This document shows, in pieces, positions 15,813 through 17,649 of a stretch of DNA of 64,000 bases. Position numbers and translations under genes: made by a program. The DNA is from Ruminococcus sp. UBA6407. GTDB taxonomy: Bacteria; Bacillota; Clostridia; Oscillospirales; Ruminococcaceae. Where the stretch lies: assembly GCA_002438605.1 (NCBI GenBank), contig DJPR01000024.1, positions 17,166-81,165 of the forward strand. Direction: 5' to 3'. The notes beneath the pieces are model-generated. The model ran no database searches. It was not told the DNA's origin and saw nothing but the letters and a program-made list of their open reading frames with translations. Position 1 is the first letter of the stretch; each line of letters begins with the position of its first letter.

Positions 15813-15892
15813 AGACAGTACCGCACAAAGACTGGTTGTATATAAGCTATGCTTTTATTTCCGCCGCACAATCCTTGTGCGGTACTGCCTTG
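15813..15892. repeat. Dispersed repeat, two inverted copies about 45 nt apart
   Basis: The left copy reads AGACAGTACCGCACAAAG; the right copy reads the inverse, TTGTGCGGTACTGCCTT. The right half also forms its own hairpin (CCGCACAA-TCC-TTGTGCGG, 15864-15882). The 80-bp unit looks like a miniature inverted-repeat element upstream of the NifU-like gene. Confidence 0.65.
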
Positions 15893-15977
15893 AAAAATAT
15901 GCAATATAAGCACATACAAACATTATATAACATTTTGTGACTAAAATCAAGTATTTTTTTATCATAACTTTTATCGT

Positions 15978-16047
15978 GAAAATTGCAATATAAAATGTCA
16001 CCAAAGATTCGGAGAAAGATTTAGTGACATTTTATATTGCAATTTTC
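15978..16047. repeat. Perfect 24-bp inverted repeat with 22-nt loop
   Basis: Positions 15978-16001 are the exact reverse complement of 16024-16047 (arm begins GAAAATTGCAATATAAAATG). It lies between two divergent genes, so it is not needed as a terminator, and it ends 28 nt before the -35 box of the efflux-gene promoter. It could be a miniature element remnant or a cruciform-forming regulatory site. Confidence 0.7.
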
Positions 16048-16075
16048 TTTGCCGTGATAATGATACATTTTATGG

Positions 16076-16104
16076 TTGAAATTTGAAAACAGATGTGATA
16101 TAAT
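16076..16104 (+). promoter_or_regulatory. Sigma-A promoter of the efflux-pump leader
   Basis: TTGAAA, 17-nt spacer, perfect TATAAT. The start point should be near 16111, about 145 nt before the pump gene and 26 nt before the leader peptide. Confidence 0.8.
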
Positions 16105-16136
16105 GAAAGCAATTAAAAATATAATGGGGGAAGAAA

Positions 16137-16175
16137 ATGAGATTATGCATTTATACAACTCCATGCAAGGAATGA
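16137..16175 (+). CDS. Leader peptide MRLCIYTTPCKE upstream of the efflux pump
   Basis: A 12-codon reading frame with a strong ribosome site (GGGGGAAG, 16126-16133) and ATG start, placed between the promoter and the pump gene. Its last codons overlap one arm of a hairpin and the anti-sequestering strand described under 16159-16252. The layout is that of leader peptides that control erm and mef resistance genes by drug-induced ribosome stalling. The N-terminal MRL recalls macrolide arrest peptides that contain MRL, although the next residue is Cys rather than Arg or Lys. No experiment is known to me; the reading rests on architecture. Confidence 0.65.
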   Translation: MRLCIYTTPCKE

Positions 16176-16252
16176 CGGACTGCATGGAGAATTAAATCTG
16201 CCGTCACACCTTGCATTCCTGACTAAAATTCATTTCAGAAAAGGAGCAAGGT
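16159..16252 (+). promoter_or_regulatory. Translational attenuator with mutually exclusive hairpins
   Basis: Stem 1:2 pairs CTCCATGCA (16159-16167) with TGCATGGAG (16181-16189). Stem 3:4 pairs ACCTTGC plus TCCT (16208-16220, 2-nt bulge) with AGGA plus GCAAGGT (16242-16252) and so buries the AAGGAG ribosome site of the pump. The alternative stem 2:3 pairs GCAAGG..TGACGG (16165-16178) with CCGTCA..CCTTGC (16201-16214) and would free the ribosome site. A ribosome held near codon 4 of the leader would block stem 1:2 and favour 2:3. This is the logic of ermC-type attenuation. Confidence 0.65.
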
Positions 16253-16255
16253 ATT

Positions 16256-17524
16256 ATGAAAACCTTAAAAGAACTAAAACTTTTTATTATTCTTTGGCTT
16301 ACCCAATCATTTTCTTCTTTGGGCAGTGCTATGACCAACTTCGCACTTGTAATATGGCTTTATCAGGACAGCGGCTCAGCTTTAACCACTGCTTTATTGA
16401 GTGTTTGTTCTTACGCACCATATGTCCTGATGAGTATTTTTGCAGGAGCTATAAGTGATAAGTGGAACAAAAAAGCAGTTATGCTTGTATGTGACAGTTT
16501 TGCGGCTGCCTGCACAATTATCATATTTGTTTTGCTGAAAACAGATACTCTGGCTGTATGGCACTTATACGTTTTAAACGCATTGAACGGCCTTATGAAC
16601 TCTGTACAATCACCTGCTTCAGATGTAGCTGTCACTCTGCTTACACCTGAAAAGCACTATCAGAAAACAAGCGGCTTGCGTTCATTTTCCAACTCTCTTG
16701 TATCTATTCTGACACCAGCTTTTGCCGCTGCACTTCTTTCTTTTGCAGGAATTGAAGCCGTTATTGCTTTCGACCTTATCACATTTTCAGCGGCATTTAT
16801 AGTACTGCTGTTTTTTATCAGAATTCCCGAGGCAGCACAGAAATCGGAAAATAAGGAAACACTGCTGCAATCAGCTAAAAGCGGACTTGTATATTTAAAA
16901 TCAAATCAAGGTATTCTATGGCTTATTCTTTTTTTATCCGCAATTAATCTTATTGCTTCAATACATAGCTCGGCACTTCCTGCACTGATACTCTCTAAGT
17001 CAAATAAAACTGCATTGGGAATCGTCAACAGCTTTACCGGAATTGCTACTTTGCTTGGAAGTATTATTGCAACATTTCTTCCTAAGCCTAAAAGCAGAAT
17101 TAAAATGATATGCAACTGTCTGCTTATTGCAATGAGTACTGAAAACTTTTTGCTTGCTTTGGGAAACAGTACTCTTGTTTGGTGTATAGGTACTGTTCTT
17201 GGGTGGATATTTATTCCGCTGATGAGTGCAAACTATGATGTGATTTTCCGAAGCAATGTTCCAAAAGAAATGCAGGGACGAGTATATTCTGTCAGAAACA
17301 CACTTCAATTCTTCACCATTCCGGTTGGATATTTTCTTGGCGGACTTCTGGTTGATGATGTTTTTGAACCATTTATGAAAAATATAAAAATCAAACCCCT
17401 TATTAATATATTTGGTTTAGGAAAAGGTTCGGGAGCAGCTCTTTTGTTCTTTATAATCGGTATTGCAGGTGTAATTGTCTGCCTGTTTTTTCAAAATGTC
17501 AAAAAATTAAAGGAGCTTGAATAA
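16256..17524 (+). CDS. MFS efflux transporter (Mef-like drug exporter)
   Basis: 422 residues with about twelve membrane spans. The N-terminus (WLTQSFSSLGSAMTNFALVIWLYQ) matches the opening of Mef-type macrolide exporters, and the loop SDKWNKKAVMLVCD after span 2 is the MFS motif A position. It should expel a drug by proton antiport. The start at 16256 is served by AAGGAG at 16241-16246. The upstream leader peptide and attenuator suggest induction by a ribosome-targeting compound; the substrate is not known. A 40-nt perfect palindrome follows the gene. Confidence 0.82.
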   Translation: MKTLKELKLFIILWLTQSFSSLGSAMTNFALVIWLYQDSGSALTTALLSVCSYAPYVLMSIFAGAISDKWNKKAVMLVCDSFAAACTIIIFVLLKTDTLAVWHLYVLNALNGLMNSVQSPASDVAVTLLTPEKHYQKTSGLRSFSNSLVSILTPAFAAALLSFAGIEAVIAFDLITFSAAFIVLLFFIRIPEAAQKSENKETLLQSAKSGLVYLKSNQGILWLILFLSAINLIASIHSSALPALILSKSNKTALGIVNSFTGIATLLGSIIATFLPKPKSRIKMICNCLLIAMSTENFLLALGNSTLVWCIGTVLGWIFIPLMSANYDVIFRSNVPKEMQGRVYSVRNTLQFFTIPVGYFLGGLLVDDVFEPFMKNIKIKPLINIFGLGKGSGAALLFFIIGIAGVIVCLFFQNVKKLKELE

Positions 17525-17609: not shown

Positions 17610-17649
17610 TGAAAGAACACACCACTATATATAGTGGTGTGTTCTTTCA
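17610..17649. terminator. Perfect 40-nt palindrome: terminator and/or NrdR-like site
   Basis: Two exact 20-nt arms without spacer lie between the efflux gene and nrdD. It can end transcription of the pump gene (the arm ends TTCTTTCA). The central 16 bp, CCACTATATATAGTGG, also fits the NrdR-box core CTATATATAG, which matters because nrdD follows. The rest of 17525-17769 shows nothing else. Confidence 0.65.

Follow-up and report, generated by a model that had tools for sequence, protein, structure and literature searches.

A leader peptide and competing RNA helices upstream of an MFS pump gene in Ruminococcus: a probable ribosome-stalling attenuator found across Clostridia

The window analysed here, a stretch of 64,000 nucleotides from Ruminococcus sp. 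UBA6407 (source genome of 2.14 Mb in 46 contigs), carries a promoter, a short leader reading frame and a set of hairpins ahead of a gene for a 422-residue MFS pump. This arrangement, noticed in a preliminary description made from the letters alone, is real and stands well above chance (Table 1). We put the probability at about 0.83 that the element is a translational attenuator of the ribosome-stalling kind, read by the stalled ribosome, and an antibiotic that stalls translation on the 12-codon leader peptide probably turns the pump on. If this is right, many clostridial genomes, those of the named pump relatives being all metagenome-assembled, carry inducible intrinsic resistance under one recognisable RNA, and resistance-type genes could be found through the switch rather than through homology. 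It would also open a defined stall position (codon 4-5 of M-x-L-C-I) to direct tests with a panel of drugs, and the element would provide a clear example of alternative RNA states whose choice depends on a narrow window of ribosome positions.

Table 1. Features of the leader region and the pump gene, in positions of the window
Feature	Position	Strand	Remark
Promoter, TTGAAA-17-TATAAT	16076..16104	+	11/12 consensus positions; TG precedes the -10
Ribosome site of the leader ORF, GGGGGAAG	16126..16133	+	
Leader ORF, 12 codons, MRLCIYTTPCKE-stop	16137..16175	+	Consensus M-x-L-C-I-x-x-A-P-C-K-x-stop in relatives
Segment 1, CTCCATGCA	16159..16167	+	Pairing with segment 2
Segment 2, TGCATGGAG	16181..16189	+	
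Putative anti-sequester arm (3' end of segment 1 and hairpin loop)	16165..16178	+	Swap test, alignment
Putative anti-sequester partner, CCGTCACACCTTGC, with segment 3 inside	16201..16214	+	
Segment 3, ACCTTGC, 5' arm of the sequestering helix	16208..16214	+	
Pump Shine-Dalgarno, AAGGAG	16241..16246	+	GGAG 16243-16246 alternatively pairs with CTCC 16159-16162
Segment 4, GCAAGGT, 3' arm of the sequestering helix	16246..16252	+	
MFS efflux pump, 422 aa, TIGR00900/Mef-like	16256..17524	+	PF07690, E 2.9e-36
Perfect inverted repeat 3' of the pump, possible terminator	17610..17649	+	Two 20-nt arms, 100% complementary

Leader frame and alternative RNA helices

Promoter-like sites number four in 15950-16300 as compared with 2.0 in shuffles, and the one listed in Table 1 is alone in exceeding 9 of 12 consensus positions, which bears out the consensus promoter of the preliminary description. 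The leader region folds at -34.3 kcal/mol against -23.9 +/- 3.2 kcal/mol in shuffles (z -3.2; 1 of 200 as good). A search of 15950-16300 for terminator-like sites found none, so that regulation is most likely exerted at the start of translation. Rfam 15 gave no match in the window at the gathering score; the best weak match of 16050-16320 was MIR1507 on the opposite strand (E 0.42), and a scan of 18 relatives returned no family for the leader element. Among the literature matches listed, judged by title or the start of the abstract, we found no published description of the element, and an earlier description is possible. Two further inverted repeats were noted in the vicinity. One, at 15978-16047 directly 5' of the promoter (28-nt arms, 96% complementary), may represent either a small mobile repeat or a terminator, and the other, at 15813-15890 (22-nt arms, 86% complementary), lies upstream of a minus-strand GGGtGRT gene and its neighbour.

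The Mef-like pump that had been described downstream of the leader is present as an MFS protein whose Mef-type matches lie below the family cut-offs: in NCBIfam it scores highest against TIGR00900 (177.5 of 319.6 bits) and next against MefB (115.6 of 800). No solved structure matched the pump in sequence at E 0.001. Relatives of the pump occur in Ruminococcus, Oscillospiraceae, Lachnospiraceae and further clostridial MAGs. Five pump loci (G068, G096, G117, G123 and G124) each have a single in-frame stop within the pump match, suggesting occasional decay of the pump.

The consensus of 132 distinct leaders is M-x-L-C-I-x-x-A-P-C-K-x-stop. A permissively defined Shine-Dalgarno-like motif lies upstream of 127 of the 132, compared with 47.7 in shuffled upstream sequences (highest count 66 in 500 shuffles); the anchored codon 1 is ATG, GTG or TTG in 117, and codon 13 is a stop in 123, where TGA doubles as stem-arm sequence. 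The 12-codon frame with its own ribosome site, as proposed beforehand, is thus kept in relatives, and a conserved short reading frame of this kind, so far as alignment can tell, is what one expects of an attenuator. Leu3 looks to have been selected as a peptide residue, its codons being TTA/TTG or CTN with TTY in 0 of 22 (Fisher p 9e-14, uncorrected for relatedness). Codon 4 encodes Cys in 89 leaders, Ala in 14, Met in 8, Ile in 8, Thr in 5, Gly in 4, Glu in 2, and Ser and Arg in 1 each (n=132), so that Met, Ile, Glu or Arg occupies this position in 19 of 132; Ile5 is found in 80 of 132. Codons 8-12, in turn, track the stems, compensated stem changes giving APRK in L005 and ALCK in L035. The pN/pS ratio was 0.71 for codons 2-7, 0.61 for codons 3-5 and 0.27 for codons 9-11, but at such divergence it is near saturation and does not separate selection on peptide from selection on RNA; codon coupling was therefore used instead.

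Covariation was counted on 35 leaders in a MAFFT alignment, with 500 shuffles for comparison. In the OFF state (helices 1:2 and 3:4), 98.6% of cells are standard and six pairs have both sides changed; these two-sided changes amount to 22 cells against 5.8 in shuffles, and the covariation score was reached by 0 of 500 shuffles, with no excess of further pair types over shuffles (315/500). Helix 1:2 is paired in 98.7% of cells with both sides altered in 4 of its 9 pairs, and in helix 3:4 one pair is altered on both sides, from CG to UA, in 13 of the 35 rows. The candidate ON helix, 16165-16178 with 16201-16214, is standard in 92.7% of cells. Both sides have changed in 7 of its 14 pairs (40 cells against 14.6 in shuffles; covariation score reached by 0 of 500 shuffles and pair count by 2 of 500). 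At one ON pair, 20 rows have C-G and 14 have G-C; at another, 20 of the 35 rows have a non-standard combination. In the window itself 12 of the 14 positions pair and two mispair.

Because alignment and relatedness can mislead, an alignment-free swap test was run by in silico hybridisation of the loop arm beyond GCAAGG, either to the partner region of the same locus or to those of other loci. Across 130 loci the mean duplex energy was -12.7 kcal/mol with the own partner and -7.9 kcal/mol with others', the lowest of 2000 permutation means being -8.6. The own partner was among the best 10% for 77 of the 130 loci, a rank that is limited because close relatives have partners in common. The swap test took the place of ON-helix counts on two model-fitted alignments (A2 and A3), since in A2 insert columns split the arm. 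Covariation in the alignment and the swap test together argue that the ON arm consists of the 3' end of segment 1 and the loop rather than segment 2. A classical 2:3 anti-sequester (TGCATGG with CCTTGCA) can be drawn by eye in the window with six pairs and one mismatch, but it was rejected because it is not kept in relatives that have CTTTGC as segment 3.

Of the four-segment scheme in the preliminary description, then, pairings 1:2 and 3:4 stood and covary, and the 2:3 alternative gave way to the arm given in Table 1. As to the burial of the pump's AAGGAG by helix 3:4, the site is mostly paired in the predicted free RNA (mean unpaired probability 0.23), and it adjoins the helix core. Homologous loci lacking a conserved frame or compensatory stem changes had been named in advance as the outcome that would speak against an attenuator; the comparison found instead a conserved frame and covariation in both the sequestering and the anti-sequester helix. 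The sequestering helix and a helix mutually exclusive with it are both, as the substitutions indicate, conserved, in keeping with an attenuator.

Distribution and downstream genes

The pump occurs at E <= 1e-60 in 51 of 125 genus genomes, and the leader model matches at 51 of 51 of these pump loci (the last being G077, L227), three of them imperfectly. L166 is a weak model match (25.6 bits, E 0.0029) with no consensus-type leader, L011, at a contig end, keeps the 3' half of the element only, and L013, likewise at a contig end, is truncated ahead of the leader start. A search model, R1, was built from the 35 MAFFT-aligned leaders and used for wider searches at E <= 1e-4. Matches came from 57 of the 396 genomes sampled in the family, 34 of 394 in the order, 24 of 391 in the class and 4 of 398 in the phylum; these samples overlap and include the window's own genome, and together they yield 106 distinct places. 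The element also precedes an MFS gene in records of Monoglobus (M. pectinilyticus, L174) and Subdoligranulum (L175). A pattern search for the leader in viral contigs identified four contigs, two of which (L223 and L226) have the element before an MFS gene; for CatA, viral contigs gave no match. By the evidence of these matches, the element is widely and portably distributed and conserved in Clostridia.

Most of the 106 survey elements (90) lie before homologues of the window's MFS pump, 7 before CatA-type acetyltransferases and 5 before other ORFs, while 4 have no intact ORF. The 90 pump homologues are 40-100% identical to the pump and include a few fragments (e.g., L084 and L132). Other downstream genes encode a MATE transporter (L138), an alpha/beta hydrolase (L149), a protein without a Pfam match (L144), and a ceramidase-like (L091) and a radical-SAM-like (L147) protein, both below the Pfam cut-off. 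Identification of the L091 protein as Ceramidase_alk was rejected, as its 23 of 32.1 bits fall below the cut-off and it has no solved relative. The idea that it might act as a phenicol amidase, which is an assumption of ours, was set aside, and no relevant paper was found for it among the literature matches listed.

Several loci merit separate mention. In L076, L121 and L122, inspection by eye finds only a C-terminal pump remnant (GKGSGAALLF-type end) after the leader, and these loci look as if an internal deletion had removed the pump and left the switch. Positions 2175-2274 of L138 match the azaaromatic (yjdF) riboswitch directly after the leader-bearing MATE gene. Positions 7-585 of L052 hold a CatA-like gene, with 36% identity to the L119 protein, upstream of an element-bearing MFS locus.

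Five of the seven CatA proteins were scanned, and Pfam CAT recognises all five, four at E 2e-55 to 2e-59 and the 80-aa fragment L146, which has an in-frame stop, at 2e-12; the same four score 202-212 bits against an NCBIfam CatA cut-off of 270. The L119 protein matches solved CAT structures, and in L096 the leader preceding CatA reads MKLCIAASPCKA. Because the L120 protein is 90% identical to that of L119, and L150 equals L145 in both element and protein, there are at most six independent CatA cases. The L119 protein was searched at E <= 1e-30 in 143 family and 143 class genomes, of which 35 and 12, respectively, had a match, and the 43 CatA-type loci from these searches, plus a Pusillibacter plasmid gene, were scanned for the element. 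Two of the 44 loci, L177 and L207, carry it, and the survey had included both; it is absent from 42. Of the latter, 41 are distant, with 27-48% identity to L119; the plasmid gene (L176, NZ_AP023421.1), on a Pusillibacter faecalis plasmid typed as conjugative, is CatA-like, 73% identical to L119 and without the upstream element. The element thus marks one CatA subgroup rather than CatA at large. The comparisons demonstrate, at the level of aligned loci, a conserved frame, both helices and placement before genes of different resistance types.

Stall position and the inducing drug

We infer both the drug-induced stalling and the codon at which it would take place. With no drug present, hairpin 1:2 would form and helix 3:4 would hide the pump ribosome site. 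A ribosome carrying an antibiotic would halt when roughly codon 4 or 5 occupies the P site; its leading edge would then cover CTCC (16159-16162) and leave GCAAGG onward free. Hairpin 1:2 being broken, 16165-16178 could then pair with 16201-16214 and withdraw segment 3 from segment 4; CTCC, a second strand able to cover the ribosome site, would also be removed, and the pump would be translated.

A ribosome footprint was imposed on the folding of each leader: positions from -14 to +15 relative to the P-site codon were kept unpaired, codon by codon. In 110 of 129 leaders the pump ribosome site was predicted to be most accessible when the P site holds codon 4 (42 leaders) or codon 5 (68 leaders), in agreement with the stall near codon 4 that had been proposed for the window. 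The best codon depends on where the leading edge of the footprint is placed: at +13 it is codon 5 (33 of 45), at +17 codon 4 (29 of 45). The median unpaired probability across the 129 leaders rises from 0.31 in free RNA to 0.44-0.46, with a gain above 0.2 in 60 leaders and any gain at codon 4 or 5 in 121; in the window, the probability is 0.23 in free RNA, 0.45 with codon 4 in the P site and 0.38 with codon 5. The predicted opening is therefore modest. In the folding model the window's free RNA is OFF, the site is open at codons 4 and 5, and 3:4 is restored at codons 6, 9 and 12, closing it again. With codon 3 in the P site the ON helix forms, yet pairing of CTCC 16159-16162 with GGAG 16243-16246 locks the site. 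The stall window predicted in this way falls on the conserved L-C-I stretch, and the two were derived separately. A stall with codon 9 in the P site, which would make Ala8 the penultimate residue, was considered and rejected: the chloramphenicol rule fits 131 of 132 leaders there, but the window's site stays closed in the folding model. The stem also imposes an xCT codon at that point.

As to the inducer, our leading candidate is a drug acting at the peptidyl transferase centre, and most likely a phenicol, because the same leader type precedes both CatA-type acetyltransferases and the pump; we hold this assignment tentatively and rate its chances somewhat short of even. Chloramphenicol stalling is described as favouring a penultimate Ala and, less so, Ser or Thr, as helped by a P-site Asp and by Lys at -3, and as hindered by Gly in the P or A site (PMC11832420, PMC8987054). 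With codon 5 in the P site, the Ala/Ser/Thr rule is satisfied by 20 of 132 leaders, and by 109 of 132 only if Cys is counted as well, a fit that is suggestive, not decisive. The figure of 20 of 132 and the absence of the element from 42 of 44 CatA-type loci count against the phenicols. A broader proposal, which we consider possible with the odds leaning against it, is that a single type of arrest peptide (M-x-L-[C/A]-I), with Cys or Ala beside the P-site residue, senses phenicols or some other inhibitor of peptidyl transferase and represents a new portable class of sensor in Clostridia, reused before MFS, CatA, MATE and hydrolase genes. Were this true, the downstream genes would amount to a list of candidate resistance functions, and the penultimate Cys would extend the known Ala/Ser/Thr context rule.

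A serious rival, although we regard it as unlikely, is a multi-drug sensor of translation stress like E. coli toiL, in which several unrelated ribosome drugs would stall the leader and open the pump site. The diversity of the downstream genes (MFS, CatA, MATE and hydrolase-type) would suit such a sensor, and toiL, for which at least five drug classes are described (PMC12121999), is a precedent; however, the folding model opens the site over about two codons, and the conservation of Leu3 is at the amino-acid level, which together suggest one context-specific stall.

Induction by macrolides, hinted at in the preliminary description, fared worse. The mef/msr leader peptides are given as MTASMRLR/K, with mef(E) acting through a terminator (PMC4335068), and a macrolide-bound ribosome stalling on MRL, in an attenuator like the erm and mef/msr leaders, would accord with the window's leader, which starts MRL, and with a pump that resembles Mef proteins, albeit below family cut-offs. 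Yet MRL begins 13 of 132 leaders, the +x+ motif ([RK]x[RK]) occurs within residues 1-8 of 1 of 132, the terminator of mef(E) (PMC4335068) has no counterpart in 15950-16300, and the CatA-type genes downstream of 7 of the 106 elements point to phenicols, so that we consider macrolides improbable as the inducer. Starvation for cysteine or isoleucine, sensed at codons 4-5, would explain the prevalence of Cys4 and Ile5 but is very improbable, given that a ribosome with the Cys codon 4 in its A site has codon 3 in its P site, where CTCC locks the window's site in the folding model, that residue 4 is not Cys in 43 and residue 5 not Ile in 52 of the 132 leaders, and that the downstream gene classes include no cysteine or isoleucine gene. 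An RNA-only switch or riboswitch with an incidental reading frame, which would account for the variation of codons 8-12 with the stems and for L138, where the RNA is kept and read in a different frame, merits equally little credence in view of the ribosome-site, start and stop counts above, the Leu3 codon coupling and the lack of a matching Rfam family.

Comparison with known attenuators

The four-segment scheme is that of ermC, and the proposed stalling attenuator departs from it in that the loop and the 3' end of segment 1, instead of segment 2, would serve as anti-sequester, in that a second OFF pairing, CTCC:GGAG, is predicted, and in that the genes that follow are mostly pumps and some CatA, with no methylase. 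It shares with ermC-type attenuators the short leader ORF, the alternative RNA folds and a ribosome site that would be hidden until a stall (PMC5418344). Translational attenuators before cat, cmlA and fexA are established, as are the erm leaders (PMC5418344), and the sharing of one leader type by CatA-type and MFS pump genes is reminiscent of the former, which precede acetyltransferase or exporter genes in that account. The CmlA leader is described as having KNAD (PMC10192921), whereas M-x-L-C-I-x-x-A-P-C-K-x has no KNAD-like motif.

A parallel in gene order is mef(E)/mel, where a leader peptide likewise precedes a Mef-type MFS pump and the anti-attenuator arm likewise lies at the 3' end of the first hairpin arm (PMC4335068). 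However, mef(E)/mel is described as transcriptional, with a terminator and the peptide MTASMRLR (PMC4335068), in contrast to the different peptide, and the lack of a terminator in the scanned region, seen here; the consensus peptide is also unlike the macrolide arrest peptides named in that source. Leaders with uORFs are established for ABC-F genes (PMC10201436), and cplR, which is from Clostridia, vmlR and lsaA resemble the model proposed here in combining uORF stalling with Shine-Dalgarno sequestration. As that source describes them, their uORF consensus spans 3-4 residues (MR[I/M], MIN and MAGN), the genes are of the ABC-F type, and for cplR transcription termination takes part (PMC10201436). 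As the covarying positions suggest, the arrangement of arms in the present element is distinct from that of known attenuators of the same kind.
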